Positions 9,313-35,600 of a stretch of DNA of 43,580 nucleotides are shown here, piece by piece. Numbering within the stretch: the first letter of the stretch is position 1; each line of letters starts with the position of its first letter. Origin of the DNA: a virus; the IMG/VR virus record IMGVR_UViG_3300047384_000356, positions 1-43,580 of that record; one strand, written 5' to 3'. Both the position numbers and the translations under genes were made by a program. The notes below the pieces were generated by a model. That model searched no databases. It saw only the letters and a program-made list of their open reading frames with translations, and was not told the DNA's origin.

Positions 9313-9338
9313 GATTAAAACTATTTTTCAACAATATT
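9311..9338 (+). promoter_or_regulatory. Candidate promoter of the ribbon-helix-helix gene
   Basis: TTGATT (9311-9316), a 16-bp spacer and AATATT (9333-9338), which continues as AATATTTAT. The -10 box ends 9 nt before the ATG at 9348, with no Shine-Dalgarno sequence. Confidence 0.4.
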
Positions 9339-9347
9339 TATGTATAA

Positions 9348-9545: not shown

Positions 9546-9574
9546 TTGACTTATTGAGATAATTTTTGTACGAT
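9546..9574 (+). promoter_or_regulatory. Sigma70-like promoter of the sugar block
   Basis: TTGACT (9546-9551), a 17-bp spacer and TACGAT (9569-9574), ending 7 nt before the ATG at 9582. It shares TTGACT-17-TACGAT exactly with the DNA polymerase promoter at 39069. The start site would fall at or next to the start codon. Confidence 0.6.
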
Positions 9575-9581
9575 ACATTTA

Positions 9582-12028: not shown

Positions 12029-12045
12029 CATAATATATACACCAC

Positions 12046-12798: not shown

Positions 12799-13421
12799 AC
12801 ATTAGTTTTGCAATATGTACCCACAATGAAACCGACTCACTTCGCAAGTTAATAAACAGAATATTAGAACTTAAACGTGAAAACGATGAAATTGTAATAC
12901 TAGATGACTTCTCTGAGAATAAAGAAACACTTGAAATTATACAGAATCACAATCACCAACAACATAGACTCAACGGAAACTATGGTGTGCATAAGAACAA
13001 ACTTAACGATATGTGTGAAAAAGATTTTATATTTCAGTTTGATGCAGATGAACTGCCAACCGAACCTCTTATCAAAAATGCACATGACATAATAGTCAAA
13101 AAGCAAAATAAAGATTTAATAAAAGTACCTAGAGTAAATTATGTACATGGTATAACAGAATTGCATCTTAAAAAATGGAACTGGAAACGGGATCACCTAA
13201 ATAGAATTAATTATCCAGACTTCCAAACCCGACTTTTTAAAAATGATAAACGAATACGATGGACCCGAGCAGTTCATGAGATTATCACAGGACATCATTA
13301 TATGGATTTTATTGAACCAAATACATTTCATGAAATAATACACATCAAGGACATTAAGATCCAAGAAGAATCAAACACAAAATATCACAGAAACTATGAT
13401 CAAAACTATGAAAAGTTATGA
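12795..13421 (+). CDS. Glycosyltransferase family 2
   Basis: The 208-residue product starts MNISFAICTHNETDSL, the classic GT2 first strand. It has DEIVILDDFS with the nucleotide-binding Asp, and the metal/nucleotide motif FQFDADE (about 76-82). A later RLFKNDKRIRWTRAVHE segment matches the acceptor-side region of small GT2 proteins related to the WaaE/KdtX glucosyltransferase type. The protein is compact compared with full-length GT2 enzymes. It overlaps its neighbours by 4 nt on both sides, indicating one operon. Confidence 0.85.
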   Translation: MNISFAICTHNETDSLRKLINRILELKRENDEIVILDDFSENKETLEIIQNHNHQQHRLNGNYGVHKNKLNDMCEKDFIFQFDADELPTEPLIKNAHDIIVKKQNKDLIKVPRVNYVHGITELHLKKWNWKRDHLNRINYPDFQTRLFKNDKRIRWTRAVHEIITGHHYMDFIEPNTFHEIIHIKDIKIQEESNTKYHRNYDQNYEKL

Positions 13422-15049
13422 ATACATCAGATATAGCATTTGTAGTTTGTTATTTTAATCCTCTTAATTATTTGTCAAAATATTTAAATTTTTTATTATT
13501 TTATGATAAAATACAAACATATTCAGATATCAAAATTATTTTTGTAGAATCATATACACGAAAGTGTAAACTTAGAATTAACAAAAATGTAGGTGATGTT
13601 GTGTCGTTTAAAAACGAATCATTTTTTTGGAAAAAAGAAAATCTTCTAAACATTGGTATCAAAAAACTAATGAAAGAATACAAATATGTGGGTTGGTTGG
13701 ATTCGGATATTATATTTCAAGACGACAACTGGATACAGAAAATAAAAAACGAATTAAGAACGCACGATATTGTACAAGTTGCAAATACAATTGATAAAGA
13801 AAAAAATAACGGAAAAACATTTTGCGTTAGATCAATGACATCTTATTACAAAAATGGAGGTGTAGATATTAAAAATACACTCGGTAGAATTGGTGAACCT
13901 GGATATGGTTATGTGTATAATAAAGACATACTAAACACCAAAACACCTTTGTATGATAAATGCATATGTGGTGGTGGTGACTATCTAAACTTGCTAGGTT
14001 TTATTAAAAGTGAGGATTTTATTAACAAAATAAAAGATAACCAAGAACGAATTTTCGGTTCAAATAAAAATATGCAAATAAATTATATAGAATGGTATAA
14101 CGAAAATAATAAAACAAAAACCATTGGATGTGCAGATAATAGAATTCTTGTAAAGTACCACGGAACTCAGGTGAATAGAAAATATTATACCCGTGATATA
14201 ATACCGAGTAAATTAAGTTTTATTCCCGAAAAAGACACCTCTTATTCAAAGTCAGGTGAATTACTTCTAAATCGTGCGGATATAAGTTGTGCAATTAAAA
14301 AGTATTTTGAATCACGAAATGAAGATGACTTTTTACTAAATTCAAGAAACCATGAACAATTTAAAAATAAATACAAATCACTAATTACTAAATACTCCAA
14401 AACTAAAAACAATGAGTTACCGTTAGAATACCTGACTAAAGTGAATATGCAGGTAATTAAAAAAGAAAAACCAAAAATATTAGGAAATCACTTTGTGTGT
14501 GTAAAATTAAAATCAGATATTAAGTTTTCTGACTTTTACAAAGAAAATGTAACAATCATAAATGAACTTGATAATGCTAATAAACTTACTTACGAACAAT
14601 ATTATATTAGGTTTATTATTAACAATTATGATAGCATAAAAAGTAATATCTTTTTCGTGAATGATAAAATGTCACATGAAAATTTTGAAAATAAAAAAAA
14701 TACAATAAGTCAATTTAATAAAGATATTGTATTGCGACATGATCTACATATTAAAGAAGACAATGCCCACATAACTCGTTCAAACCTAAATTTCAAACAA
14801 TGGATTGCATTGTTTATTAAAACAAAAACAATAAAGTACCAGTTGGTAAATAATGATGTAAAGTTAATAGATAGTCATTTGCACAAATACATACCCTACT
14901 CAGAGTCTTCAAACTATTATATATCGGGAGAATCTATATTAAAAAACAGTAAAGATTATTACACCAAAATTTATAATTTTTTAGAAAAAAGGAACAATCA
15001 AGAAAATTTAATGTACTTAAAGATAAGTTTTAGATTATTATTTAAATGA
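13418..15049 (+). CDS. Two-part glycosyltransferase-like protein
   Basis: The 543-residue product has a GT-A-like N-terminal half. It starts IAFVVCYFNP, has IIFVESYT, a DXD-type motif GWLDSDIIF (about 93-101), and a GEPGYGYVYNKDIL acceptor-like segment. The C-terminal half (from about 360) repeats the layout seen at 1847-3217: a VKLKSDIKF strand, then YEQYYIRFIINNYDSIKSNI and FFVNDKMSH. This loosely resembles DUF3431-type domains. The gene overlaps both neighbours by 4 nt. It may be bifunctional, but the activity of the second half is unknown. Confidence 0.7.
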   Translation: MNTSDIAFVVCYFNPLNYLSKYLNFLLFYDKIQTYSDIKIIFVESYTRKCKLRINKNVGDVVSFKNESFFWKKENLLNIGIKKLMKEYKYVGWLDSDIIFQDDNWIQKIKNELRTHDIVQVANTIDKEKNNGKTFCVRSMTSYYKNGGVDIKNTLGRIGEPGYGYVYNKDILNTKTPLYDKCICGGGDYLNLLGFIKSEDFINKIKDNQERIFGSNKNMQINYIEWYNENNKTKTIGCADNRILVKYHGTQVNRKYYTRDIIPSKLSFIPEKDTSYSKSGELLLNRADISCAIKKYFESRNEDDFLLNSRNHEQFKNKYKSLITKYSKTKNNELPLEYLTKVNMQVIKKEKPKILGNHFVCVKLKSDIKFSDFYKENVTIINELDNANKLTYEQYYIRFIINNYDSIKSNIFFVNDKMSHENFENKKNTISQFNKDIVLRHDLHIKEDNAHITRSNLNFKQWIALFIKTKTIKYQLVNNDVKLIDSHLHKYIPYSESSNYYISGESILKNSKDYYTKIYNFLEKRNNQENLMYLKISFRLLFK

Positions 15050-15930
15050 ATTATATTGCTATACATTTATTTCCGCATGAGGTTTATGATTATCAACGCA
15101 TAATAACACAACTCAATAAAAGCATTAAACAGGTTGATAAACCTGATAATTTCAAAATAATTAGTTATCTAAATAGCAACCCGAGTATTATATGCAAGGA
15201 ATCATACAACCACCCCAATCTGAGTAATTTAATAGACTTGTATTTAGCAGTTTCAATTGAATCAAAAATTGTTGTACAACTTCTTGATAAAGATGCAAAA
15301 ATACTTGGAGTAAATGACTTTAGAAGAAAAATATTATCGATAACAAATGACAATGACTACATAACTTTTCTTGATTGTGATATACATTTTACACTTAATA
15401 TTTTAAAATCAATAGAGTTTACTACAAATAAAGTTAGCAAGTTTTTAAAAGATTTTGTAATTACTCCCACAACACTTAGATTATGGGATAAAACGTGGGA
15501 CTATATAGTGGCTGATCAATATCAAAAAAAAGAACTTAATTATTACAAAAGTGCAAATATTGAAACCGAAATACAGAATTTTATTCAGGAATATAAACTA
15601 AGACCCATTCCAACCTTTAAGTGGGGAGGGGGTTGGTTCACAACCATTTCAGCAAAATTAGCCAAATATATAAACATCCCAAGTAAATTTGTTGGTTATG
15701 GAGTAGACGATACCTTCATAATGGAAGGTTGCAAACATTTAAAAAAATCAGGAACACGAATACAACAATTCGTAATGACAGATACTCTTGTATGTGAGTC
15801 AATAAAAGAAGAAAACATTAATGTTCATTTTTTAAAAGAAACAAATTATTTAAAAAAGCAAAGTGAGCAATGTTTTGTATCTGAGATAGAAAAACTAAAA
15901 GTAAAAATTAAAAAAACTCCATATATATAA
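15046..15930 (+). CDS. GT-A-like glycosyltransferase
   Basis: The 294-residue product has a DXD-like motif in YITFLDCDIHF (about 105-115), an acceptor-loop-like segment FKWGGGWFTTISAKLA, and VGYGVDDTFIMEG. The last resembles the GWG-x-ED-x-D segment of GT2/GT7-type enzymes, where an acidic pair acts in catalysis. It belongs to the chain of transferases overlapping by 4 nt. Overall similarity to any one named family is low, so only the fold and general activity are proposed. Confidence 0.65.
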   Translation: MNYIAIHLFPHEVYDYQRIITQLNKSIKQVDKPDNFKIISYLNSNPSIICKESYNHPNLSNLIDLYLAVSIESKIVVQLLDKDAKILGVNDFRRKILSITNDNDYITFLDCDIHFTLNILKSIEFTTNKVSKFLKDFVITPTTLRLWDKTWDYIVADQYQKKELNYYKSANIETEIQNFIQEYKLRPIPTFKWGGGWFTTISAKLAKYINIPSKFVGYGVDDTFIMEGCKHLKKSGTRIQQFVMTDTLVCESIKEENINVHFLKETNYLKKQSEQCFVSEIEKLKVKIKKTPYI

Positions 15931-15932
15931 TA

Positions 15933-16742
15933 ATGAAGACAAAAAAAGTTACCACTTTCTTGCTACTTACTTTATGTTGTACCTTTTTTTCAGGATGTTT
16001 CACTTTACCAAATTGGGGACTAAAACAAGACAGGCAAGAAATTGCAGGAGAGATTTCAAGAAAAGAATCAGAACTAAATAGACATACAAGTGCATATATA
16101 TCAGGTACTGTTGACGCATTATCTTTATCAGAAAATAAATCAAAAGAAGAATTAGTTGCTCTTGATTTAGCACGAAAAGCACAAGAAATAGTTGGTCTAC
16201 CACAACCAGGAGACAAAATACACATAGACGATGTAATTAATAATAATGAAATTGCAGTAAAAAATTTATTAGATAGAGAAAAGGATGTTATAACACTTGC
16301 AAGAAGAAAGCAAATGCTTGGACACGACTTAAAAGATACCGAAGAAAAACTTATTAGTTTAGGAGAATTGAAAGCAAAAGAACAAAAAGACGGATTCTTT
16401 GACTCTATGTGGAGTTGGTTAACAGGAACATTTGGTATCATTGGTGCAGTTGCGGTTTTAATAATAGGAGGTCCTGCGTTACTACCAATTATTACACAGT
16501 TAATCGCATGGTTAGTCAGTAAAATACCAGGACTTATATCGTGGTTAGGAATTACAAGTAGTCAAATGACATCAAATATAATACGAGGTGTACAAAATGC
16601 AAAGCACACAATTAAATCATCTCAAGATGACCGTAAGTTTACCAAAAACGAAGTTTTAAATATTTTTGGATCATCTCTTGGAAACTCCACAAACATTTCC
16701 GACAAAAATGCGATTGATAGAATAAAAAGAAAATTCAAGTAA
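15933..16742 (+). CDS. Predicted lipoprotein with membrane segment
   Basis: The 269-residue product has a type II signal peptide: a KTKK n-region, a hydrophobic core, and a lipobox FSGC with Cys22 as the lipid-modified residue. The mature part has a Glu/Lys-rich coiled-coil-like region (about 30-145). A long hydrophobic zone (about 152-195, IIGAVAVLIIGGPALLPII then IAWLV and GLISWLG) follows, then a polar tail. Phage lipoproteins are known in superinfection exclusion and as outer spanins. This one is too long and too coiled for a typical outer spanin, and an envelope or exclusion role is inferred. The start lies 2 nt after the upstream stop. Confidence 0.7.
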   Translation: MKTKKVTTFLLLTLCCTFFSGCFTLPNWGLKQDRQEIAGEISRKESELNRHTSAYISGTVDALSLSENKSKEELVALDLARKAQEIVGLPQPGDKIHIDDVINNNEIAVKNLLDREKDVITLARRKQMLGHDLKDTEEKLISLGELKAKEQKDGFFDSMWSWLTGTFGIIGAVAVLIIGGPALLPIITQLIAWLVSKIPGLISWLGITSSQMTSNIIRGVQNAKHTIKSSQDDRKFTKNEVLNIFGSSLGNSTNISDKNAIDRIKRKFK

Positions 16743-16802
16743 TACTGTTAATAGTAAATACTTATTATAACAAAGGTTATATTACACTAAACGGGAAGTA
16801 AT

Positions 16803-17684
16803 ATGAAGATTGGAGTTGTTGGTAACGGATTTGTTGGTCATGCAATGACATTGTTAAGACCTCATGTTGAGGTGTTGGTATGGGATGTTGTACCTGAAAA
16901 AAGAGAACCGAACACATTGGACATAGAAACATTTGTAGAGGAGTCGGAAATTATTTTCGTTGCAGTTCCAACACCAATGAACTCAGATGGAAGTGCCAAC
17001 TTAAATATTGTTCGTTCAGTTTGTGAAGAAATACAGGAAATAGACGACTCTAAATACATCGTTCTACGTTCTACGGTTCCTCCTGGAACAAGTGCAGAAC
17101 TTGATGTTAATTTTATGCCAGAATTTCTTACTGAAAAAAACTGGAAAAATGATTTTAAAAATTGTGACCAATGGATACTTGGTTCTACCGATCCGTTCTT
17201 GTACGAAAAAATGAAAAGAATGTTTGAACTTGCGTACAACAGTGGAAACGGAACTGTTGTAAATAAAGAGGTGATTCAGTGCAAACCATCAGAAGCAGAA
17301 ATGATAAAGTATTTAAAGAATGTTTTTTTAAGTGTAAAGGTTGGTTTTTTCAACGAACTTGAAAATATTTGCACAGAACTTAACATTGACTATGAAAACG
17401 TTCGTTGTATAGCAACACAAGACAAACGAATAGGAACTGGTCATACAAAAGTACCAGGACACGACGGTCATCGTGGTTTCGGTGGTACGTGTTTTCCGAA
17501 AGATACAAATGCTTTAGCAAAATTTGCAGATGAAAACATGATCCCAACTCCAATATTAGATGCAGTAATAAAACGAAACGAAGAACTTGATCGTCCAGAA
17601 AAAGATTGGATGAATGACAGGGGTAGAGCAGTTTCTGCCGAAGTTGAAACTTCAAATTCGACCAAAAAGAAAACAGGCAAATGA
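16803..17684 (+). CDS. Short UDP-glucose/GDP-mannose 6-dehydrogenase-like protein
   Basis: The 293-residue product has the NAD-binding Rossmann start MKIGVVGNGFVG, then VAVPTP (54-59) and RSTVPPGT (89-96). The central-domain signature is EAEMIKYLKNVFLSVKVGF (164-182), and the catalytic motif GFGGTCFPKD holds the thioester Cys230. These enzymes oxidise a nucleotide sugar twice to a uronate. The usual family length is about 390-450 residues. The third, UDP-binding domain is missing here, so either a partner supplies it or the substrate differs. A Shine-Dalgarno GGGAAG precedes the ATG. It overlaps the DHH gene by 4 nt. Confidence 0.85.
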   Translation: MKIGVVGNGFVGHAMTLLRPHVEVLVWDVVPEKREPNTLDIETFVEESEIIFVAVPTPMNSDGSANLNIVRSVCEEIQEIDDSKYIVLRSTVPPGTSAELDVNFMPEFLTEKNWKNDFKNCDQWILGSTDPFLYEKMKRMFELAYNSGNGTVVNKEVIQCKPSEAEMIKYLKNVFLSVKVGFFNELENICTELNIDYENVRCIATQDKRIGTGHTKVPGHDGHRGFGGTCFPKDTNALAKFADENMIPTPILDAVIKRNEELDRPEKDWMNDRGRAVSAEVETSNSTKKKTGK

Positions 17685-18634
17685 GTTATTACGATTTTTT
17701 TAACGGAGATGCAGATGGTATAATTAGTCTACATCAATATAGAATGCATTACCCCCAAAACTCAGAAGTTTACACGGGTGTTAAACGAGATGTAAAACTA
17801 TTAAGGCATTGTACCAATATAAAAAATTCAAAATTTACAGTATTTGATATATCATTGTTATCAAATAAAGATTATGTTAATACAATACTAGATAATGGAA
17901 ATACAATTCGTTGGTTTGATCACCACGAACCAGGTGAAACTAAACTCGGTGAAAACTTTCAAATTTTTGTAGATGCTGATCCAAATTGTTGCACAAACAT
18001 TTTGGTGGACAAATATGTTGATGGGTTGTATCGTCCGTGGACAATATGTGGAGCATACGGAGACAACTTACACGAACAGGCAGATAAACTAAATCCAAAT
18101 TTTAGCAAAGAACATATGTTAGAGTTAAAAGAAATTGGGGAAACATTAAACTACAATGGATATGGAAACGAAGAATCTGATTTAACGGTTCATCCCAAAG
18201 ACGTTTATCTTGATATTAAAGACTACGAATCACCATTTCAATACAGAGAAAAGTCGGAAGTATATAACAAAATATTTACTCAAATGAAAAGTGATGAAAG
18301 TGAATTAAGTTCATCGGATATATTACATGACACAGAAACTGGTAAAGTTATTCTTCTTCCAAACTCAAAAGCATCTATTAGATATTCTGGAATTTATAGC
18401 AATCAACAAACTACTGAAAACCCTGACAAAGCATTTGCGATATTAACATTAGTCAATGATGATAACTATCGTATTAGTATCCGTTCCCCAAAATCAAATC
18501 CATTTGGTGCAAGTAAACTTGCACTACAATTTCCAACAGGTGGTGGTCGTGAAAAAGCAGCCGGAGTAAATGAATTGCCAAAAACAGAGTTACCTACATT
18601 TATTGACAAATTTGAAGAAGTGTATGGAAAATGA
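17681..18634 (+). CDS. DHH/DHHA1-family phosphoesterase
   Basis: The 317-residue product carries the motifs of DHH phosphoesterases: FNGDADGI (7-14), TVFDIS (53-58), WFDHHE (78-83) with the DHH triad, and a later GAYGDN. A C-terminal DHHA1 domain has GGGREKAAGV (about 288-297), where the usual GGGH reads GGGR. Family members are Mn-dependent 5'-3' exonucleases (RecJ) or nanoRNases and cyclic dinucleotide phosphodiesterases (NrnA, GdpP). The length and lack of RecJ extensions favour a small-substrate enzyme. Its place between sugar genes, with overlaps of 4 nt on both sides, is unexpected. Confidence 0.85.
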   Translation: MSYYDFFNGDADGIISLHQYRMHYPQNSEVYTGVKRDVKLLRHCTNIKNSKFTVFDISLLSNKDYVNTILDNGNTIRWFDHHEPGETKLGENFQIFVDADPNCCTNILVDKYVDGLYRPWTICGAYGDNLHEQADKLNPNFSKEHMLELKEIGETLNYNGYGNEESDLTVHPKDVYLDIKDYESPFQYREKSEVYNKIFTQMKSDESELSSSDILHDTETGKVILLPNSKASIRYSGIYSNQQTTENPDKAFAILTLVNDDNYRISIRSPKSNPFGASKLALQFPTGGGREKAAGVNELPKTELPTFIDKFEEVYGK

Positions 18635-19251
18635 TTGTTTCCCACAAACATAAGTTTATATTTTTCAAACCTTGGAAAGTGGGTGGTAATAGTGTTGAGT
18701 ATAACTTAATCGAGCAATGTGGTGAAGAAGATTTAATAGATGCAACTCATAGAAATCCACGTGATGTTTATGATATTGTGGGGAAAAAAATATTCAACAA
18801 TTACTACAAAATAACAATCACACGAAATCCGTGGGATAGAATGGTTTCATATTTTTGGTGGCAAGATGGTGGTTTGGTCGGCAAGAACCACAGAGAAAAT
18901 GTAGACAAACTGCTTAAAATGAAATTCGATGGATATGAGTTTAAGGAGCAATTTGCTCGTTGGATTGGAAATTACACTCAATTTAATCAACCTTACTATT
19001 TTAATAAGGAGGGTGAAGCAAATATGGATCACTACATGAAGTTTGACAATTTAGATGATGAATACAAATCTTTGTGTAAAAAACTAAATTTAGAATATAA
19101 AAGTTTAAAAAACATAGGAAAGTTTCCATTTAAAAAGAAAAATGAAGATTATTGGAAATACTATAATTACCACTCAGGTGCAATAGTCGCACAACGCCAC
19201 AGACGTTCTATTAAAAAATTTAATTATACCTGCGGACCGGTAAATATATAA
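18631..19251 (+). CDS. Sulfotransferase-like protein
   Basis: The 206-residue product has the two PAPS-binding elements of carbohydrate sulfotransferases. The 5'-phosphosulfate loop is FFKPWKVGGNS (11-21), corresponding to the usual PKTAGTS segment. The 3'-phosphate motif is TRNPWDRMVSY (64-74). Family members move sulfate from PAPS to a sugar hydroxyl. It overlaps the DHH gene by 4 nt and lies within the sugar block, so a sulfated glycan is the natural inference. The protein is short, near the minimal domain. No PAPS-synthesis gene is visible, so the host would supply PAPS. Confidence 0.8.
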   Translation: MIVSHKHKFIFFKPWKVGGNSVEYNLIEQCGEEDLIDATHRNPRDVYDIVGKKIFNNYYKITITRNPWDRMVSYFWWQDGGLVGKNHRENVDKLLKMKFDGYEFKEQFARWIGNYTQFNQPYYFNKEGEANMDHYMKFDNLDDEYKSLCKKLNLEYKSLKNIGKFPFKKKNEDYWKYYNYHSGAIVAQRHRRSIKKFNYTCGPVNI

Positions 19252-19270
19252 ACGTAGAATATATATTAGT

Positions 19271-19390
19271 ATGAGCAGTAAAATATTTATTGAAACGCAC
19301 AAATTAAGTTTTTTGGTTTTGACTAAACCAATTTTAAATAAAAACAACAATCAAATATCTGCACAAGATTTAGCAGATAGGTGGGGATAA
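19271..19390 (+). CDS. Possible 39-residue protein
   Basis: An ATG at 19271 opens 39 codons starting MSSKIFIETH and ending QISAQDLADRWG. The tail resembles the helix-turn start of small phage DNA-binding or accessory proteins. It fills most of the 144-nt gap between the sulfotransferase and cupin genes and ends 5 nt before the cupin ATG. There is no strong ribosome-binding site, and the length alone is weak evidence. Confidence 0.35.
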   Translation: MSSKIFIETHKLSFLVLTKPILNKNNNQISAQDLADRWG

Positions 19391-19395
19391 AAATT

Positions 19396-19815
19396 ATGAG
19401 CAAAACAGACGAAAGCATTAGACCTTGGGGAAATTATGAAATACTTTTAGATGCAGATTATTGCAAAGTTAAACGCATCTTTGTGAAACCAGGACAAAGA
19501 CTTAGTTACCAGTATCACCACAAACGACAAGAAGCATGGACAGTTGTTAGTGGTGTTGCGAGAATAACCTTGGATGATGTCACGGAAGATTACAAACCAG
19601 GTGAAACCGTATTGATTCCACTTGGTGCAAAGCATCGTATGGCAAACCCAAGTGATGACGAAATGATGATATTAATTGAAGTTCAAACAGGAACTTATTT
19701 TGGTGAGGACGATATTGTGCGTGTTCAAGATGACTATGATCGTCCAGAAAAACACATTGCCGATGTAAACTACCCACCCTATGAGTGGACTGAAGACGGA
19801 GAACAACCGAAATGA
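19396..19815 (+). CDS. Mannose-6-phosphate isomerase type cupin
   Basis: I choose the ATG at 19396 (MSKTDESIRPWG), 139 residues, over an in-frame GTG 15 nt upstream that overlaps the small upstream frame. A GGGGA lies about 8 nt before it. The product is a single cupin domain with metal-site motif YQYHHKRQEAW (about 38-48), then GETVLIPLGAKHR and EVQTGTYFGEDDIVRV. It matches the isomerase half of type II phosphomannose isomerase/GDP-mannose pyrophosphorylase. It would feed fructose-6-phosphate or mannose-6-phosphate into nucleotide-sugar synthesis. It overlaps the nucleotidyltransferase gene by 4 nt. Confidence 0.85.
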   Translation: MSKTDESIRPWGNYEILLDADYCKVKRIFVKPGQRLSYQYHHKRQEAWTVVSGVARITLDDVTEDYKPGETVLIPLGAKHRMANPSDDEMMILIEVQTGTYFGEDDIVRVQDDYDRPEKHIADVNYPPYEWTEDGEQPK

Positions 19816-20219
19816 AAACCGTAGCAGTTAGTGGATACTTTGATCCAATTCATGTAGGACACTTAGAATATCTTGAATTAGCAAAGAAACTTGGTGATCG
19901 TCTTGTTGTTATCGTAAACAACAACCATCAATGTGTTCTTAAAAAAGGCAAACCATTTATGGATGAAGCAGATAGAGTTAAAATCGTAGAAGCACTCGGA
20001 ATAGTTGATGAAGCATTTCTCAGTATCGATGAAGACAAAAGTGTGTGTGCTTCTCTTGATGCAATTAAACCCGACATCTTTGCAAATGGTGGAGACAGAA
20101 GCACAGGTGAAGTTCCAGAGAGTGTAATTTGTAAAAAACACGGAATAGAAATGATTGATGGTCTTGGTGACAAAATAAGAAGTTCGTCAGACTTGACTGG
20201 ATTAAAAGAAAAGAAATAG
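19812..20219 (+). CDS. HxGH nucleotidyltransferase (RfaE/TagD-like)
   Basis: The 135-residue product has the nucleotidyltransferase signature GYFDPIHVGHLEYL (8-21) with the HxGH motif, a Lys-containing loop (LKKGKPFM), NGGDR, and a C-terminal RSSSDL. This matches the cytidylyltransferase-like family that includes the adenylyltransferase domain of RfaE/HldE (ADP-heptose) and glycerol-3-phosphate cytidylyltransferase TagD. Given the surrounding sugar genes, activation of a heptose or similar sugar 1-phosphate is plausible. The exact substrate cannot be fixed. It overlaps the cupin gene by 4 nt. Confidence 0.85.
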   Translation: MKTVAVSGYFDPIHVGHLEYLELAKKLGDRLVVIVNNNHQCVLKKGKPFMDEADRVKIVEALGIVDEAFLSIDEDKSVCASLDAIKPDIFANGGDRSTGEVPESVICKKHGIEMIDGLGDKIRSSSDLTGLKEKK

Positions 20220-20234
20220 TATAGTCTGATTTCT

Positions 20235-21137
20235 ATGAATAAAGTTCTTATTACAGGTGGTGCAGGGTTTGTAGGAACTGCACTTATACGTAAACTTATA
20301 CGAAAGTATAAGAACATAGAAATTGTATCTATTGACAATTATAGTAGTGGATTTAAAAGTAATCATATTAAAAGTAAAAAAGTAACTTATCTTAATAAAG
20401 ATACGCAGACATTGATTCCAAAAAAAATTAAAGCAAACAATACAAAAATGGATATTGCAGATGCCTTCGAACCAGATGTTGTTTTCCACTTTGGTGAGTT
20501 TTCAAGAATCGTAACAAGTTTTGATTCGTTTGATAACTGTTGGAGCTATAATATGCAAGGAACTAAAATGGTTCTTGATTATTGTGTCGCAAAAAAAGCA
20601 AAGTTAATTTATTCAGCAAGTTCAAGTAAATTTGGTAATGATGGTAAAGACGAAAATCTTTCTCCATATGCTTGGATGAAAGCAAAGATGGTTGAACTTA
20701 TTAAAAACTACTCGGACTGGTTTGATTTAGAATATGAAATAACATACTTTTACAATGCTTATGGTCCGGGACAAGTACGAACTGGTGATTACGCAACCGT
20801 TATAGGAATATTTGAAGAGCAATACTCCAAAGGAGAACCACTCACAATAGTAGAGCCCGGAGAACAATCAAGAGACTTTACTCATATCAACGACATCGTA
20901 AGTGGTGTTGTGTTAGCAGCCATAAAAGGACAACAAGGAGAATATCCTCTTGGTACTGGTATTCCACATAAAATAATTGATGTAGCAAAAATGTTTAAGC
21001 ATAAGCACGTCATGATTCCAGAAAGACGTGGAGAAAGATTTTACGGAAAAGCAATCCCATCGTTGACTTACCAACATCTAGGTTGGAAGGCAAAAATTAA
21101 ACTAGAAGATTATATTGCAAAGATTATATCTAATTAA
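20235..21137 (+). CDS. NAD-dependent sugar epimerase/dehydratase (extended SDR)
   Basis: The 300-residue product has the extended-SDR NAD motif GGAGFVG (8-14), SIDNYSSG (32-39), a catalytic Ser in YSASSSKFG, and the Y-x3-K pair Tyr145/Lys149 in SPYAWMKAK. A C-terminal substrate part holds NAYGPGQ, EQSRDFTHINDI and PLGTG. It most resembles UDP-glucose/UDP-GlcNAc 4-epimerases and related dehydratases. Length is normal. It ends the sugar block, 140 nt before asparagine synthase, with a structured spacer between them. Confidence 0.88.
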   Translation: MNKVLITGGAGFVGTALIRKLIRKYKNIEIVSIDNYSSGFKSNHIKSKKVTYLNKDTQTLIPKKIKANNTKMDIADAFEPDVVFHFGEFSRIVTSFDSFDNCWSYNMQGTKMVLDYCVAKKAKLIYSASSSKFGNDGKDENLSPYAWMKAKMVELIKNYSDWFDLEYEITYFYNAYGPGQVRTGDYATVIGIFEEQYSKGEPLTIVEPGEQSRDFTHINDIVSGVVLAAIKGQQGEYPLGTGIPHKIIDVAKMFKHKHVMIPERRGERFYGKAIPSLTYQHLGWKAKIKLEDYIAKIISN

Positions 21138-21276: not shown

Positions 21277-22923
21277 ATGTGCGGAATATTAGGAGGTAAC
21301 TCATTCAAAGATATACAAGACGTAAAAAACGGACTTGCTTCAATTATGCATCGTGGAACAGATGGAAATGTAATTTTTCATTTCAAGAAAAATGATTTCT
21401 TTCTTTGTCACAATAGACTATCTATTCAGGATTTAAGTGAAACTGCAACTCAACCACTTATTTCAGAAGATGAAAAATTTGTATTAGCATTTAATGGTGA
21501 AATGTGGAAACCTTTTTTCAAAAAGTTTAATAAAAAACTAAGAGAAAAGTACAACTTTAAAACAGACAAAAGTGATTCAGAATTATTGCTTTATTACTTA
21601 ATAGATAATCGTGATAATATTTTGGAATCAATGAAGAAACTTGACGGAATGTTTTGTTTTGCATTTTATGATGTAGAAAGAAATGAACTTACATTAGGAA
21701 GAGACTTCATTGGAAGATTACCTTTATATTATGTTTTTGAAAATGATAAAATAATGTTTTCAAGTGAAGTTAAAGGACTACAATCAGCAAACAAAGCATT
21801 AAAATTTTTTAATGTAGACAGAAATCGTAAAGCACCAGAAGGAGAACAAGAAAAAATAAAAGTTGTAGAACCGGGGACAATTGTAACGGTTTCCGAGAAT
21901 TTTATTGGTGCAACAAATTGCGAAATAAAAAGATGGAACGATTTTAAACCAGAGTTTAATCCAGAGAATCCTACATTATATACACGATCAGAAAATGATC
22001 TTGTTATATTAGAAGGAGAGGACAAAGGAATAGACTACTACGCATCCGAGTTTAGAAAACGGTTGGAAAAAGCAGTTGATGATGAACTTATTAGTGATAC
22101 TCCTATTTGTACAATTTTAAGTGGTGGAATTGATAGTACAATTATCACCTACTTACTTAAAAAGAAAAATCCTAACATTGAGGCATTTGTTGTTAATGTT
22201 ACATCAGGAAGAAATCAAACACTCAAAGATGATTTGTATTATGCTAAAATGGCATCTAAAGAGTTGGGTGTAAGATTACACGAAGTAACAGTTCATAAAG
22301 ATGATATTCAAGAGCATTTAAAAGAAAGTATATATGCAGTTGAAACTCAAAAGTGGACACAAGTCTCACCCGCAGTTGCTCAATTATTTTTGTCTTGGGA
22401 AATTCGTGACAAAGGATACAAGGTTGTGTTCGGTGGTGAAGGAGCAGATGAAATATTTGCAAGTTATGGAGATGTAAAAAGATTTTGCTGGCCGGACAAA
22501 CTTGCTTGGCATCAAAAAAGAGTAAATCTTATCAACAACTTGCATAAAAACAATTTAATCAGAACCAACAAAGCAATGATGTACGGAGGAAAAGTAGAAC
22601 TAAGAACTCCTTTTCTTAATAAAGAGTTGATTGATTTTGGTTTGAGAATTCCAACCAGATACAGAGATGAAGCAGATGGAAAGGGTAATGTAATGAAATA
22701 TGTTTTGCGTAAAGCATTTGAAGGAGAAATTTCAGATGAACTTCTCTGGAGACCCAAAAAGACTTTTCAACAAGGATGTCACACAGATTACTTAAAGAAG
22801 GAACAGGAGACGATAGAACAATATTTCAACGAATTGTTTGTTGAAAATAAAGTTCCACAGAAATATCTTGATAGAAATCTTGGCCACGTGTCTGCTAGAA
22901 TCAAAGTTACCACGTTAGTATAA
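21277..22923 (+). CDS. asnB: Asparagine synthase (glutamine-hydrolysing)
   Basis: The 548-residue product has the class II glutaminase domain starting MCGILGG, with the nucleophile Cys2 exposed after Met removal, and IMHRGTDG and AFNGEMW motifs. The synthetase domain has the PP-loop LSGGIDST (about 281-288) and FGGEGADEIFASYGD. It would make asparagine from aspartate, glutamine and ATP. Related enzymes amidate other carboxylates, including sugar acids and secondary metabolites. Length and motifs look intact. Such genes are known in large phages. It stands between the sugar block and the coupled oxygenase/PLP/methyltransferase genes. Confidence 0.9.
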   Translation: MCGILGGNSFKDIQDVKNGLASIMHRGTDGNVIFHFKKNDFFLCHNRLSIQDLSETATQPLISEDEKFVLAFNGEMWKPFFKKFNKKLREKYNFKTDKSDSELLLYYLIDNRDNILESMKKLDGMFCFAFYDVERNELTLGRDFIGRLPLYYVFENDKIMFSSEVKGLQSANKALKFFNVDRNRKAPEGEQEKIKVVEPGTIVTVSENFIGATNCEIKRWNDFKPEFNPENPTLYTRSENDLVILEGEDKGIDYYASEFRKRLEKAVDDELISDTPICTILSGGIDSTIITYLLKKKNPNIEAFVVNVTSGRNQTLKDDLYYAKMASKELGVRLHEVTVHKDDIQEHLKESIYAVETQKWTQVSPAVAQLFLSWEIRDKGYKVVFGGEGADEIFASYGDVKRFCWPDKLAWHQKRVNLINNLHKNNLIRTNKAMMYGGKVELRTPFLNKELIDFGLRIPTRYRDEADGKGNVMKYVLRKAFEGEISDELLWRPKKTFQQGCHTDYLKKEQETIEQYFNELFVENKVPQKYLDRNLGHVSARIKVTTLV

Positions 22924-22978: not shown

Positions 22979-23788
22979 ATGAATACATTACTAAAAGATA
23001 AATCTGATCTCGTTGATATTGAGAAGTTTATTCCAGACGCACACATTCTTGGTGCTATGCAAAAAGCAGATGGAATTCCTGCGAACGAAATCAAAGTTAT
23101 ATCTACTAAATTTAGTAAGGTAGGAAAAACCACTTTAGACAAATATCCAAACTTGGAATGGGTTGTGCATCGTGGTCACGGAGTTGACTCTGTTAATTTA
23201 AAGTTGTGCAAAAAACATAATGTAGGAGTTGTTGCGACAAACCCAAATACCAACGGTTGTGCTTATTGGATCAAAGACAAACTAATTGATGGTGATTGTA
23301 TTATATTTGGAAACGGGGTCATTTCTAAAAAAGTTCAAGGTATCGTTGAACATTTTATTTCTGTTGTTGATTCAAGAACGGATAATACACTTATTCAACA
23401 ACTTATGTCAGCACCGAATATAAAGAATGTTATTGCAACCGTACCTTTAAATGATTCCACAAAAAATATGTTCAATGAAAAATTATTTGAAAAATGTAAG
23501 AACATAAATTTTGTATCTATATCAAGATCAGATTGTCACGACAATTCAGACTTACTATCTTTAGTTAATTCAGGAAACATTGCAACTGCACATATAGATA
23601 CACTAGGAACAGAATTAAGAGAAGAGTTGTTGCAAACCAACAAAGTATTTTATTACAATCACACCTCTTGGAATTTTCTTGGGAAAAAAAATGATCATCA
23701 ATCATTAAAAAAAATTATAGAAGATTGTTTAGAAAATAAAGTAAATAATGCAATTTTAGAAAGGCAAGAAAACAAATGGTTTCAGTAA
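22979..23788 (+). CDS. Degenerate D-2-hydroxyacid dehydrogenase-like protein
   Basis: The 269-residue product follows the family plan. It has an N-terminal segment [19 protein letters not shown] and VGVVATNP, a nucleotide-binding-like [13 protein letters not shown], then [42 protein letters not shown] and the His of NHTSW. It is shorter than the usual 310-330 residues. The glycine motif (GNGVIS) and the SRG signature (SRSD) are altered, and the stretch before the Rossmann core is compressed. It may bind substrate without normal dehydrogenase activity. It overlaps the oxygenase gene by 13 nt. Confidence 0.7.
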
Positions 23789-24981
23789 AAGAAAAGAAAA
23801 CAAAAAAAGTGAAAGTCAAAGATGACATTTCAGATGAAGTAAAAGATTCATTCAAAGAACACGCAAAATTTTATCAGCAGTATGATGTTCCTCCACATTG
23901 GAAAGATCAACCAATTGCTTGCAAAGAACCAAACTTAGACCCGTTCAAGAAAATCAATTGGAAGAACTTGTGGGAAGCAGATCAAAAAGGCAGATTGTTT
24001 TTCAAGAAAGAAAACGAGGAAATTGTTTGGAGTTATATCTGTGCAGAAGCAAAGTCTGGTCGTGGACTCAAAGATGTCGCCGAAGATGTAGTTGCTCATA
24101 TTAAAACTGGTGATCTACAAATTACAAGATTTGCATATGCAGATGGATATATGGATGATCTAGTCAAGGATATTGAAAGTAGACGAGAATTAGAAAATGA
24201 TTTATTTGACACAAGATGCGATTTATTTTTCACAGATGTTAATATGGAACTTCAAAAAGATAAGGATTTGTGTGAAGCAGTTAACGCAACTTGGTTAAGT
24301 AGTAAAGTAACTGCCGTTGGTTCTGAAGTCCGTGGAATTTGGTATAGTGGTGAATTAAAGCAAACGGGTATGTCACAATATGAAGACATTAAGATTCAGA
24401 AAATGAACATCAATTCTATTACCAAAAAAGAATGTGCAGAACTCGTTCAAGAAATCCAAGATTACAAAGAAGCAGTTAATCCTTGGAGTTACGATGGTAT
24501 CAATGGAAACTACGGAGGACCTGAAAAGACTTGGTATACAATTGAAGTTGTACCAATCAACCCCAATAGTAAGATTGATTATACCATTCTTGAGAAATTG
24601 CCTAAACTCGCAAAAATTGTAAACGAAATTACATCAGTAGAAAAATGTACTTGGTTGGTTATTACTAGAGTAGAACCCAAGAAGGGTGTCATTCAAAGAC
24701 ACTCTGACATAGGTCATGATAGTTGGGACTACCAAACAAAGAACGGACCCAAACTTGGTCGTTCATTGCGTGTACATTTTCCAATTCAAGTTGATGAAGA
24801 ATGTGTGTTCACACAAGTCGGACTAGACGGCGTAGAAGAAGACTTCCGTTTGAAAACGGGAGAATATTATTACATGGATAAACGCAAACCACATTGGGTT
24901 GTAAATAATTCAGACAATTATCGTTTCCACGTAATAATGGATTTGGAATGTGAACAGAAACACTTAGATGCTCTCCTTTAA
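23776..24981 (+). CDS. 2-oxoglutarate/Fe(II) oxygenase (Asp/Asn hydroxylase-like)
   Basis: The 401-residue product has a lysine-rich start and an unassigned N-terminal half. The C-terminal domain (about 290-401) looks like the aspartyl/asparaginyl beta-hydroxylase family. It has VIQRHSDIG with an iron-binding His and Asp (about 308-311), [30 protein letters not shown] with the second His, and RFHVIMDL. Family members hydroxylate protein side chains, peptides or free amino acids. The N-terminal half has no match I recognise. It overlaps both neighbours by 13-14 nt, implying coupled translation. Confidence 0.75.
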
Positions 24982-25825
24982 CTTTGATACTCCATTAGAA
25001 AAACATTCTTGTGGAGAAACTGAAGTTTATATCAAACGAGATGATTTGCTGAACGGGAATATGGACTTACCTCCGTGGGCAAAAATGGAAGGTATTCGTA
25101 GAGTTCTTGAAAACGGTGAGTTGTCTAAAGATAAACCAATCATACATTTATCAGTTCGTGTAAGTTATAGTGGATGGGCATTGGCATATATCGGAAAAGA
25201 ATTAGGATTTAAAATAAAGATTGCTTATCCAGATACAAAAGATTACCCACAAAAAGCACTTGAAAAAATAGAAAGTTTAGGAGCAGAACTTGTTCCAATG
25301 AAACCAAACATTCTCAGCATTGTAATTAGTAGTGTTGCAAATCTTGCTAAAAAAGAAAATTACCAAATGATGCCTTATGCGTTTAATCATATAGATTATA
25401 TAAATTATTTCAAAGAAAGAACGCAGAGCATACTGCAAAAGAAAAACTTCAAGCATTTAGTAATAAACGCAGGAAGTGGAGTCACTCCTTCGGGTATTCT
25501 ACAAGGATTTATGAACTTTGATTCGTTCGGAATTCAATCAGAAGAAAACAAAAAGTATGCTCACTTAATTACAACTGCAAGCAAGTCATCTATTGCAAGT
25601 ATGCTAAAGAAGTGGAATGTGTATGATCGCAACCTAACTCAGATACACGAAACACCTCACGACTTTTTTGATGATATGGATTGGTGCGAAACTCCGTTTC
25701 CTTGTAATGGTAATTGGGATAAAAAGGCATGGATATGGTTAAAAGAAAATGGTTGCAAACTAAACGGAGATATACTATTCTATAATCTTGGTGGTGCTTG
25801 TGCATCACACTTTTGGAGACAATGA
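24968..25825 (+). CDS. PLP-dependent enzyme, tryptophan-synthase-beta fold
   Basis: The 285-residue product resembles the ACC deaminase/D-cysteine desulfhydrase branch of fold type II PLP enzymes. It has TPLEK (8-12), VYIKRDDLL (20-28) and the probable PLP Lys39 in WAKMEGIRR. The phosphate-cup motif is AGSGVTPSG (about 168-176), and it ends in LGGACASHFW. The family acts on amino acids or aminocyclopropane acids. An Arg/Ser substitution (LSVRVSYSGWALA) stands where ACC deaminases have the SNHG-type loop, so the substrate is probably different. It overlaps the oxygenase gene by 14 nt and the methyltransferase gene by 4 nt. Confidence 0.75.
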   Translation: MLSFNFDTPLEKHSCGETEVYIKRDDLLNGNMDLPPWAKMEGIRRVLENGELSKDKPIIHLSVRVSYSGWALAYIGKELGFKIKIAYPDTKDYPQKALEKIESLGAELVPMKPNILSIVISSVANLAKKENYQMMPYAFNHIDYINYFKERTQSILQKKNFKHLVINAGSGVTPSGILQGFMNFDSFGIQSEENKKYAHLITTASKSSIASMLKKWNVYDRNLTQIHETPHDFFDDMDWCETPFPCNGNWDKKAWIWLKENGCKLNGDILFYNLGGACASHFWRQ

Positions 25826-27411
25826 AAAAATACTTTTACGAGAAGAATAACTTAACAGAGTGTAAAGTTAATATTACATTCCACGAACTATTGCTAAAGA
25901 ATGGTGAGGAGTTGGAAAATTGGATTGATGAACTTAGAACTTATATTGTGGACACTTGGGATAATGAAGGCCTTCCACCAAGAACAGGTAAAAACGAAAA
26001 AGATATTATAGCAAACTTTAACAAGTTGCCTGGTTACGATGTTTACAAGTTTCAACATACAGATGAAATGGATGGAACAGATACTATCATAAAAAACTTT
26101 AACAAGTTCGCAACCGTAGTGGATCAGTTTTTTCCAACGATGCTTAAAACCAAAATTGGTTCTAGCAAGCATACATCTTGGAGTGTATATGATTGCTTTG
26201 CTAATCCAGAGAAACGAGAAAGTTTTCACACTTGTATGAGAAGAACGGTTCGGAGAGATTCGTTTTATGCTCACGGAAAAACTATTGGTAAAAATGATTT
26301 TGATGTTCCGTGTCCAACACAAAACGGAGAAGAATGGATTCGTAACTTTGTTAAAGAAAAGCATCTTCATCCGAATAATGACTTTTGGATTATAGAGTTG
26401 TTCACAGAAAAAAACTTTGACTCATATGAACAAAATAGTTTGATGCTTACTGCAAAGCAAATCAGAAAATTATACAAAGAAGGTTTGCTTGAATTAAACA
26501 ACATAAGAAATTTAGAAAGAACTGCAAACTTCGGTGACGATATAGAAAATATAAATGATGTAATTATCGAAGACGAAAAAGAAGTACAATTCAAATTCAG
26601 TATTCGTTACTACAACAAGAACTCAAGAATCTTTCCATCTGCAATGGAAGCATTTAAGTTAGGTCTTAGTCAACCAGCAGTAAACTTTCCTCCGTTGACT
26701 GCAAAATATATATACCAAAAATACACAGACCACATTCAAGATAAAAGTGATCTTCATATATATGATCCAAGTGCAGGATGGGGTGGTCGTATTCTCGGTG
26801 CTATGTCAGTACATGATCGTCAAATTCACTACATCGGAACTGACCCAAACACAGACAATTATATAGACGAACTTGGAAAAAGTCGTTACGAATATCTTGC
26901 GGACTTCTTTAATGACAAAACAAATGGAGGTAATCCATTCTTTGGTCATCGTAACACGTACGATGTTTATCAGAACGGAAGTGAAGAAATTCATAAGAAT
27001 CCAAGTTTTCAAAAATACAAAGGTAAACTTGATTTGGTTTTTACAAGTCCACCATATTTCAATCGTGAGCAGTATTCAGCAGATGATACTCAGAGTTTCA
27101 AAAAGTTTCCAGAGTACGCAGATTGGAGAGACAACTTTCTTCGTCCTACTTTGAAGACGGGTGCCGAGTATTTGAAGAACGATAGATATCTACTTTGGAA
27201 TATCGCAGACATCGCAGACGGAGGCGGATTTATGCCATTAGAAAAAGATAGTCGTGATATTCTTGCGGAATATGGACTTGAGTATGTTGAAACTCTTAAA
27301 ATGCTTATGACAACAATGCGTGGTGTTAAAGCAGAAACGGTTAAGAATTGTTGCAAGATAAACGGAGAGTTGCAAAAGTATGAACCTATCTTTGTATTTT
27401 ACAAGAAGTAA
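25822..27411 (+). CDS. DNA amino-methyltransferase (SPPY type) with N-terminal extension
   Basis: I choose the ATG at 25822 (MKKYFYEKNN), overlapping the upstream stop as ATGA. An in-frame TTG 24 nt earlier is open but less likely. The 529-residue product has an unassigned N-terminal half (about 1-260). Its class I methyltransferase domain has AdoMet motif YDPSAGWGGR (about 313) and catalytic motif TSPPYF (about 407-412). An NPPY/SPPY-type motif means methylation of an exocyclic amino group, N6-adenine or N4-cytosine. It is paralogous to the enzyme at 35600-36817, sharing an almost identical block after SPPYF. It is the last gene of the operon. Confidence 0.85.
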   Translation: MKKYFYEKNNLTECKVNITFHELLLKNGEELENWIDELRTYIVDTWDNEGLPPRTGKNEKDIIANFNKLPGYDVYKFQHTDEMDGTDTIIKNFNKFATVVDQFFPTMLKTKIGSSKHTSWSVYDCFANPEKRESFHTCMRRTVRRDSFYAHGKTIGKNDFDVPCPTQNGEEWIRNFVKEKHLHPNNDFWIIELFTEKNFDSYEQNSLMLTAKQIRKLYKEGLLELNNIRNLERTANFGDDIENINDVIIEDEKEVQFKFSIRYYNKNSRIFPSAMEAFKLGLSQPAVNFPPLTAKYIYQKYTDHIQDKSDLHIYDPSAGWGGRILGAMSVHDRQIHYIGTDPNTDNYIDELGKSRYEYLADFFNDKTNGGNPFFGHRNTYDVYQNGSEEIHKNPSFQKYKGKLDLVFTSPPYFNREQYSADDTQSFKKFPEYADWRDNFLRPTLKTGAEYLKNDRYLLWNIADIADGGGFMPLEKDSRDILAEYGLEYVETLKMLMTTMRGVKAETVKNCCKINGELQKYEPIFVFYKK

Positions 27412-31104: not shown

Positions 31105-31133
31105 AATATTATAAAAACTGACTTTTCTTCCAA
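31105..31133 (-). promoter_or_regulatory. Candidate promoter inside the SET-domain gene
   Basis: On the minus strand, TTGGAA (31128-31133), a 17-bp spacer and AATATT (31105-31110), continuing as AATATTTAT, 10 nt before the ATG at 31094. It lies in the last codons of the SET-domain gene. Confidence 0.35.
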
Positions 31134-31438
31134 CTTTCTGAGTTTTCTATGTTGATACAAATATCTGTGTTTTCATAGAAATTAATTGTTAGTTCATCAC
31201 CACATCTTACTTCCTTAAGTGTGAACATATGCAAATCTTTTCCGACAATTTTATTAACACAATTATTTGTATTACTATGATTTTGGAAATTACCGATTTC
31301 GGTTGCTTCTCCAACAACCACTCGTTCGTTTATTAAACCGATTCCAATGTGACTTAATCCAACATCGGTATTTGCTTTTATATTCTTGGTAGCAATTAAA
31401 CCGTGTCCGTGAATATTAGATTCACTTAATTTATACAT
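31109..31438 (-). CDS. Minimal SET-domain protein
   Basis: The 109-residue product has the SET-domain signatures in order: IHGHGLIATKNI (9-20), the AdoMet/pseudoknot motif GNFQNHSNTNNC (49-60), and GDELTINFYE (80-89). The last corresponds to the GEELTxDY end of the domain. SET proteins transfer methyl groups from AdoMet to lysines of proteins. It is smaller than a full SET domain (about 130 residues), as in other compact viral forms, and lacks post-SET cysteines. The start codon overlaps the stop of the upstream gene (TAATG), so the two are coupled. The target protein is unknown. Confidence 0.75.
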   Translation of the reverse strand: MYKLSESNIHGHGLIATKNIKANTDVGLSHIGIGLINERVVVGEATEIGNFQNHSNTNNCVNKIVGKDLHMFTLKEVRCGDELTINFYENTDICINIENSESWKKSQFL

Positions 31439-32595: not shown

Positions 32596-32671
<76 letters not shown>

Positions 32672-32717
32672 AATGTATTACAATGTATTTATATACATAT
32701 ATACTTATATAAAAAAA

Positions 32718-32808
32718 TGGCGGAGAGAACAGGATTCGAACCTGCGGAAGGATATACTCCTTCAACGGTTTAGCAAACCGTCGCCTTAAGCCACTCAGCC
32801 ATCTCTCC
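32718..32808 (-). tRNA. tRNA-Ser(GCU)
   Basis: The 91-nt class II tRNA has acceptor GGAGAGA / TCTCTCC, anticodon loop TTGCTAA in stem ACGGT/ACCGT, and a long variable arm (GAAGGA..TCCTTC). Its T-loop is TTCGAAT, followed by discriminator G and encoded CCA. It reads AGC/AGU. Confidence 0.95.
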
Positions 32809-32815
32809 TTTAAAA

Positions 32816-32892
32816 TGGCATCCACACGGAGATTCGAACTCCGGTTGCCGGGATGAAAACCCGGTGTCCTGACCTGACTAGACGATGTGGAC
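32816..32892 (-). tRNA. tRNA-Glu(UUC)
   Basis: The 77-nt cloverleaf has acceptor GTCCACA / TGTGGAT (a G-U closes the first pair), anticodon loop TTTTCAT in stem CCGGG/CCCGG, and T-stem CGGAG/CTCCG. Discriminator G and an encoded CCA follow. Confidence 0.95.
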
Positions 32893-32897
32893 ATAAA

Positions 32898-32973
32898 TGG
32901 AGCCACCTGTCGGGATCGAACCGACGACAACCTGATTACAAATCAGGTGCTCTACCAGCTGAGCTAAGGTGGC
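32898..32973 (-). tRNA. tRNA-Thr(UGU)
   Basis: The 76-nt cloverleaf has acceptor GCCACCT / AGGTGGC, D-arm GCTCAGCTGGTAGAGC, and anticodon loop TTTGTAA in stem CCTGA/TCAGG. Discriminator T and an encoded CCA follow. The gap to tRNA-Glu is only 5 nt. Confidence 0.95.
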
Positions 32974-32986
32974 AATAAATTGATTA

Positions 32987-33061
32987 TGGAGCATCGGACA
33001 GGATTCGAACCTGCATGGTAGGGATTTGCAGTCCCTTGCGTCACCATTCCGCCACCGATGC
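32987..33061 (-). tRNA. tRNA-Cys(GCA)
   Basis: The 75-nt cloverleaf has acceptor GCATCGG / CCGATGC, anticodon loop CTGCAAA in stem AGGGA/TCCCT, and T-loop TTCGAAT. Discriminator T and an encoded CCA follow. It is the first tRNA of the cluster. Confidence 0.95.
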
Positions 33062-34835: not shown

Positions 34836-35600
34836 ATGACTTTCCAAAACTTAGATTCAAATTTTGAGAAAAAAGCAGCCGCCGGTTCTCAACAAAATCA
34901 AAATATTTCTCCCGAAGAAGCACACATGAAGCAAACTCAACCTGTTGAGGAGAAAGAGAAGTATGAATCTAAGATGTCTGAATCGTTAAAAGGTGGATTA
35001 CTTTCAGTATTCCAAAAACAATTATCTAAGGTAAGAACCGAGAAAAAAAATGATGATTCATTTGATACAATTAATATTACTTCGGATGACATTGTAAAGT
35101 CAAGTTCTACTACTGCACCTAACAAAGAAGTTTCAGAAGAAGAAATTAATGATTTGCTCAAACCCTCTCAGACCAACAAATCTTCTATTGAAGAAGAGTT
35201 GTCTAAAGCAGAGAATATTGAAATAGTTACTGAAAAAACTCAAGTCAAAAAGAAGGAAGAAAAAACTGAAACAAGTTTTTCAACCGATAGAGTAAGATAC
35301 GAAGATAATAATCCAGTAACTGAAAAACGTGCTAAGTTAGAAGACGCAGTTTCTCAAATTGCCGTCCTACGGGCTGCCAACGGAGAAGCAACTACATTAG
35401 GTACAGACGGAAAGCAAATGTATGACGATGAAATTTCTTATCATCTTCAGCAACATAAACTCAAAAAGCAACAGGCAAAACAAGAAGGAAACTCAAGTGC
35501 AGAAACTGTGTTAAATTACGATGAACAACCAGTTAAAGACGAGAACTCTGATCCTTCTGCACCACGTGAATCTGAGTTGGATGGTTCTGATATCTTCTGA
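34836..35600 (+). CDS. Low-complexity acidic protein, scaffold-like
   Basis: The 254-residue product is rich in Glu, Lys, Ser, Gln and Asn, with predicted disorder and coiled-coil segments (EEEINDLLK, IEEELSKAENIE, HLQQHKLKKQQAKQE). It has no hydrophobic core domain. A conserved-looking island is KRAKLEDAVSQIAVLRAANG (about 166-185). No family is recognised. Composition would suit a scaffold, a head accessory protein or an RNA-binding protein. Its stop overlaps the start of the methyltransferase gene (TGATG). Confidence 0.55.
   Translation: MTFQNLDSNFEKKAAAGSQQNQNISPEEAHMKQTQPVEEKEKYESKMSESLKGGLLSVFQKQLSKVRTEKKNDDSFDTINITSDDIVKSSSTTAPNKEVSEEEINDLLKPSQTNKSSIEEELSKAENIEIVTEKTQVKKKEEKTETSFSTDRVRYEDNNPVTEKRAKLEDAVSQIAVLRAANGEATTLGTDGKQMYDDEISYHLQQHKLKKQQAKQEGNSSAETVLNYDEQPVKDENSDPSAPRESELDGSDIF

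Follow-up and report, generated by a model that had tools for sequence, protein, structure and literature searches.

We have studied a stretch of 43,580 bases from a marine phage, the IMG/VR virus record IMGVR_UViG_3300047384_000356, which we will call the window. It contains a cassette of five genes, all of them on the + strand, which probably hypermodify the DNA of the phage itself. Their products are designated here as AsnB, HADH, 2OG, PLP and MTase; relative loci have L-numbers and larger relative contigs have G-numbers. The five genes are:

21277–22923 (+): AsnB, 548 amino acids (aa), glutamine-dependent amide ligase of the asparagine-synthase type, with GATase and PP-loop parts (Pfam GATase_7, Asn_synthase)
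22979–23788 (+): HADH, 269 aa, shortened homologue of D-2-hydroxyacid dehydrogenases (Pfam 2-Hacid_dh_C, E 8e-11; 2-Hacid_dh, E 8e-9)
23776–24981 (+): 2OG, 401 aa, two-domain Fe(II)/2-oxoglutarate oxygenase of the Asp/Asn/Pro-hydroxylase type (Pfam Asp_Arg_Hydrox, E 8e-9)
24968–25825 (+): PLP, 285 aa, fold-type II pyridoxal phosphate enzyme of the phrog_7093 / M6 gp52 family (Pfam PALP; phrog_7093, E 6.5e-24)
25822–27411 (+): MTase, 529 aa from its ATG, similar to DNA amino-methyltransferases (Pfam N6_N4_Mtase, sub-threshold)

The last four genes overlap by 13, 14 and 4 nucleotides (nt). The original prediction, made from the sequence of the window, had reported these overlaps, and the coordinates of the open reading frames (ORFs) agree with it. 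It took these four genes as the whole unit. The four genes are real, but the unit is larger, since AsnB belongs to it as a fifth gene: in the window 55 nt separate the end of AsnB from HADH, in the relative L002 both genes overlap by 4 nt, and AsnB is gained and lost together with HADH, 2OG and PLP, independently of the sugar genes found upstream. All five genes are under purifying selection, with ratios of non-synonymous to synonymous substitution of 0.04–0.14 when compared with L001 and L002; therefore they are not chance ORFs. The MTase frame has a further in-frame TTG at 25798; its most likely start is the ATG at 25822, in an ATGA which overlaps the PLP stop codon. Directly upstream of the cassette, in positions 9582–21137 (+), there is a long series of glycosyltransferase-like, nucleotide-sugar, sulfotransferase and cupin genes, probably a cluster for a glycan of the surface or of the virion.

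MTase has a motif I DPSAGWGGR (about 26764–26790) and a motif IV TSPPYF (27043–27060), both kept with little or no change in 22 relatives, and its structure model matches class I methyltransferase folds in the PDB. It is thus a putative N4-cytosine/N6-adenine methyltransferase, as judged from motif I, a motif IV of the form (D/N/S)PP(Y/F/W) and the predicted class I fold. Its N-terminal part of about 260 residues had been described as unassigned and it stays so: it has no Pfam match, and the matches of the whole model in the PDB fall among general class I methyltransferases, which give no assignment to this part. The closest relatives of PLP among cultured phages, in a search with the window protein, are found in phages M6 and YuA, with 26–28% identity over 94% of the length. 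Lys39 (25082–25084) is invariant in 18 relatives, M6 included, and is likely to be the Schiff-base lysine. By its sequence PLP is a member of the gp52 family, the pyridoxal phosphate enzymes used in M6 thymidine hypermodification.

In 2OG the residues H309, D311, H373 and R383 are invariant among 14 divergent relatives. The HxD...H iron triad and the 2-oxoglutarate-binding Arg of PF05118-type enzymes can be recognized in the sequence, which indicates a putative member of this group. The Pfam match is confined to the C-terminal half. In the predicted structure (mean predicted local distance difference test score 84) the nearest PDB folds are L-proline cis-4-hydroxylase, human AspH and a beta-hydroxylase from nucleoside-antibiotic biosynthesis. 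The model also matches gp4 of Mycobacterium phage LilMcDreamy along most of its length (E 2e-23, 407 columns, template modelling scores 0.67/0.73); profile comparison gives E 4e-21. The N-terminal half, also considered unassigned in the original prediction, is indeed outside the Pfam match, but according to the model and the fold search it appears to be common to LilMcDreamy gp4. A GNAT-like N-terminus, suggested by visual inspection of the secondary structure in the model, was not confirmed by the fold search and is not claimed.

AsnB has its Cys2 (glutaminase) and its SGGIDS PP-loop intact and invariant in six sequences; it has thus the two sequence marks of asparagine synthase B (Cys2 glutaminase, SGGxDS PP-loop) and is predicted to be such an enzyme. 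HADH had been called degenerate. This description is adequate for its shortened length, for the active-site Glu at position 212, which is variable in the close family, and for the GxGxxG glycine motif, which is incomplete; it does not hold for Arg183 and His228, which are invariant in the close family, together with Gly111 and Gly113.

The five families recur together in other marine phages, and they do so in several orders. A scan with PLP gave ten loci, among which the set recurs where the flank is long enough. The order of the window, AsnB-HADH-2OG-PLP-MTase, is found in L001 and L002 and also in L009, where the contig ends inside MTase. Three loci (L003, L006 and L010) have the order MTase-AsnB-x-HADH-2OG-PLP. 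Wider scans added MTase-x-PLP-HADH-AsnB-2OG (L037), MTase-PLP-HADH-AsnB-2OG (L038), AsnB-HADH-PLP-MTase-2OG (L044) and HADH-2OG-PLP-HD-MTase (L050, L054). In five further loci (L067–L070 and L075) MTase is 92–94% identical to that of the window, while the slot upstream has neither AsnB nor HADH and is occupied by 2OG and PLP genes which differ from those of the window. In two of them, L067 and L069, the sugar genes are still present: a sugar epimerase is followed directly by the 2OG gene. Since sugar genes are present there without AsnB and HADH, AsnB goes with the cassette and not with the sugar genes. A gene-neighbourhood search had been proposed as a check of the original prediction, and a lack of conserved co-occurrence was one part of what would have refuted it; co-occurrence in other phages is conserved.

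Some relatives have additional genes. Between AsnB and HADH there are large unrelated ORFs in L010 (5932–8037, 701 aa) and in L003 (6423–7628, 401 aa), for which family searches gave no confident match. A family of genes of 222–258 aa is placed directly after PLP in many relatives (L003, L006, L010), but in the window it is found at 1153–1821 (−); in the L077 relative it is HD-like (PF01966, below cut-off).

The association of PLP with DNA methyltransferases is also found outside the cassette. Gene 7 of Erythrobacter phage ZS04 (812 aa) has a PLP domain in residues 402–623, placed between methyltransferase motif I (341) and a motif IV SCPPY (661); its N-terminus is ParB-like, as judged by eye and by co-occurrence. 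In another Erythrobacter phage, vB_EliS_R6L, a near-identical PLP sequence is part of a gene whose annotation is DNA modification methylase, and metagenomic phages also have PLP domains inside methyltransferases. Microcystis phage Mae-JY30 has PLP as a gene of its own: it comes after two genes annotated as ParB/sulfiredoxin, and the adjoining ORF matches the methyltransferase parts of ZS04. We have compared 89 PLP loci, taken from IMG/VR, GTDB and the phages just named and ranked by their likeness to the ZS04 domain, so that the fractions cannot be read as those of an unbiased sample. A methyltransferase is present in 66 of them (7 fused, 40 adjacent at less than 300 nt and 19 within 3 kb); the other 23 show none, some of them on short contigs. 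On contigs of 149–375 kb most methyltransferase paralogues are near the PLP gene: 2 of 3 in G027, 5 of 5 in both G026 and G025, and 6 of 7 in G020. The proteins of ZS04 and vB_EliS_R6L resemble the window in that a PLP enzyme from the same superfamily is tied to an amino-methyltransferase. They differ by being a single polypeptide, by the presence of ParB and by a motif IV S/TCPPY, whereas the window MTase comes from another branch (TSPPYF). We did not find a description of either a PLP-methyltransferase fusion or the five-gene set in the literature; key subscription papers were outside the search, so that an earlier description is possible.

Three known systems can be compared with the cassette. 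Pseudomonas phage M6, which contains 5-(2-aminoethyl)deoxyuridine, has in common with the window the phrog_7093 PLP enzyme, and in both cases the idea is a post-replicative tailoring with amino acids. Its PLP gene has an unnamed ORF on one side and, on the other, a gene with the annotation DNA repair photolyase; the thymidylate-synthase gene is close by. In the M6-like phage SN1 a homologue has been listed in a thymidine-modification cassette, adjoining rSAM and aGPT-Pplase2 (PMC9476957), and we have matched this homologue in our analysis. The M6 genes gp51, gp53, gp54 and gp55 (the set of 5-hmdU DNA kinase, aGPT-Pplase and radical SAM isomerase) have no relatives in G001–G004 or in the window. 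The thymidylate-synthase family PF00303 (dUMP hydroxymethylase) is absent from G000–G004, including the 130-kb G001, in genomes which may be incomplete. PLP is therefore the sole component in common, and the M6 pathway proper was discarded; unlike M6, the window pairs PLP with an amino-methyltransferase. A handle of the thymidylate-synthase type was also rejected, being found only in the versions of the giant phages and of L056/L057, and in two contigs with 2OG only.

In Synechococcus phage S-B43 a ligase of the AsnB family, CmoY, joins glycine to 5-carboxymethylcytosine in DNA (PMC12783734). The CmoA/CmoX/CmoY system combines an enzyme of DNA methyltransferase type with an AMP-forming ligase of the asparagine-synthase family; the window resembles it by MTase and perhaps by AsnB, which has the PP-loop. 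However, the Cmo system has a C5-methyltransferase with SPPC, while the window MTase is of the N4/N6 type (TSPPYF, N6_N4_Mtase match); AsnB retains a glutaminase domain and is only distantly similar to SpCmoY, and PLP, 2OG and HADH are additional to the Cmo set. CmoA (carboxy-SAM synthase, TIGR00740) is absent from 11 records, and on this ground 5-carboxymethylcytosine of the CmoA/CmoX type was rejected.

The third system is the Tet/JBP-like plus ADDT locus gp2–gp4 of LilMcDreamy, where gp4 is the protein that resembles 2OG. Its gp3, annotated as hypothetical, matches the ADDT amino acid:DNA transferases (E 2.7e-12). The annotation of gp2 is queuine tRNA-ribosyltransferase, and its similarity to Tet/JBP is weak (E 0.002, below the Pfam cut-off); the annotation of both genes in this cultured phage may be wrong. 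In our numbering the gp2–gp4 stretch is L159, 855–3759. Neither Tet/JBP (PF12851) nor ADDT (PF18724) has a match over the family cut-off in 28 records, the window and its relatives, and a modification of this kind was rejected as well.

We conclude, with a probability of roughly 0.7, that the five-gene cassette hypermodifies the DNA of its own phage. This reading is based on the fact that the genes stay associated in other phages and are related to enzymes which decorate DNA with amino acids. DNA is indicated as the target because PLP belongs to the M6 family, because PLP is fused or adjacent to methyltransferases, and because 2OG matches LilMcDreamy gp4. The exchange of genes beside a conserved MTase in near relatives, the clustering of methyltransferase paralogues around PLP, the action of CmoY on DNA and the giant-phage loci described below speak for it too. 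The original prediction had left the choice between a DNA hypermodification and a small molecule; the linkage of the genes, the PLP-methyltransferase fusions and the relatives in two hypermodification loci favour DNA. The product would be an amino-acid hypermodification with a hypothetical base and chemistry, perhaps placed on an exocyclic amine.

We may envisage the following scheme. The MTase-type protein would recognize a DNA site and act on an exocyclic amine, either cytosine N4 or adenine N6, as the TSPPYF motif IV suggests. The amino acid could arrive in two ways: the MTase-fold protein might transfer the 3-amino-3-carboxypropyl group of S-adenosylmethionine, or a PLP-aminoacrylate might be added to the base amine. 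PLP would work with MTase on the amino-acid group borne by, or joined to, the target base. This base-linked group would be hydroxylated by 2OG, its 2-oxo and 2-hydroxy acid forms would be interconverted by HADH, and AsnB would cap its carboxylate by forming an amide, the nitrogen being taken from glutamine. A bulky modification of this kind may shield the DNA against host nucleases. By analogy, the known chemistry of each enzyme fits an alpha-amino-acid side chain. We infer in this way the substrate, the base, the order of the steps and the protective role; any single step is much less certain than the general function.

Several observations weigh against this interpretation. The MTase family lacks PLP or 2OG neighbours in 38 of 80 loci, so that plain methylation is a viable activity for MTase. 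The distance between PLP and MTase within windows was not significant (combined p 0.55), a test which is uninformative because the windows are small and were picked for the gene. AsnB bears only a weak likeness to SpCmoY, with 20.9% over 115 aa and, when five sequences were compared, an E of about 1e-4. No enzyme known to make a DNA handle was found in the window or in large relatives of up to 130 kb, the completeness of these genomes not being established. The handle could be made either elsewhere in the incomplete genomes or by the MTase/PLP pair itself; some loci hold just adjoining MTase and PLP, for example L077, which makes the second option more attractive.

The best of the other explanations, though we think it unlikely, is that the enzymes make or alter a free small molecule derived from an amino acid during infection, MTase being a plain methylase in the same operon. 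AsnB could make Asn, which 2OG would hydroxylate, PLP would dehydrate to a 2-oxo acid and HADH would reduce. The chemistry of the four enzymes would suit free Asp/Asn as well, and the best folds for the oxygenase domain include hydroxylases of free amino acids, such as L-proline cis-4-hydroxylase. However, the PLP family is fused or adjacent to DNA methyltransferases in many phage contigs and is the family of M6 hypermodification, and the relative of 2OG sits beside an amino acid:DNA transferase. Slightly less probable still is that MTase only methylates DNA and its neighbours are unrelated cargo in the same exchangeable slot. The 38 loci without cassette neighbours and the non-significant distance test agree with it; the same families, however, recur with MTase in many orders, PLP-methyltransferase fusions exist and the genes overlap by 4–14 nt. 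It is very improbable that AsnB and its neighbours extend the series of sugar and glycosyltransferase genes in 9582–21137 and serve to modify a glycan of the surface or of the virion. Some asparagine-synthase homologues amidate sugar acids, and genes for a nucleotide-sugar epimerase, a UDP-sugar dehydrogenase-like protein and glycosyltransferase-like proteins are directly upstream, but L067 and L069 have such genes without AsnB and HADH, while L003, L037 and L044 have the cassette without adjoining sugar genes.

Within the hypermodification reading we propose, tentatively and as possible rather than probable, a more general mechanism. Without any 5-hydroxymethyl or 5-carboxymethyl handle, MTase and PLP would assemble a side chain of amino-acid type directly on N4 of cytosine or N6 of adenine. 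Oxygenases that can replace one another would act on it afterwards, as would a dehydrogenase and an amide ligase, in a module widespread in marine and other phages. If this were true, phages would have a general means to decorate DNA with amino acids, namely a PLP enzyme which works beside a DNA amino-methyltransferase or forms part of it, and hypermodification would reach beyond pyrimidine C5 handles. Many unassigned phage PLP and oxygenase genes would be explained, and new enzymes would be available to write functional groups into DNA. The core module is present in cultured phages, hence the idea is open to mass spectrometry.

A different arrangement is found in the giant-phage loci L052, L053, L060 and L063 (around 8400–10800): one or more MTase genes, a thymidylate-synthase-like gene (about 235 aa), a PP-loop ligase without glutaminase domain, PLP and MTase. 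It is a candidate for a separate hypermodification system. Its ligase resembles SpCmoY (BLAST 3e-9, phmmer about 1e-10, in a five-sequence comparison).

The window has two other methyltransferases. One of them, in 41613–42509 (+), adjoins DNA polymerase B and is akin to the methyltransferase halves of the ZS04 protein with the PLP fusion (E 2.6e-18, single-sequence search). It has TCPPY in place of (D/N/S)PPY; a cysteine at the catalytic position is unusual. The other, in 35600–36817 (+), has the motif SPPYF and is of a type present in multiple copies around the PLP genes of phage contigs of 109–375 kb. A small ORF of 109 aa in 31109–31438 (−) is SET-domain-like (GHGLIATKNIKA...NHSNTNNC...GDELTINF), as judged by eye only. 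Finally, five consecutive tRNA genes (Ala, Ser, Glu, Thr, Cys) are found in 32596–33061 (−), and some of the ORFs listed in this region are translated tRNA genes.

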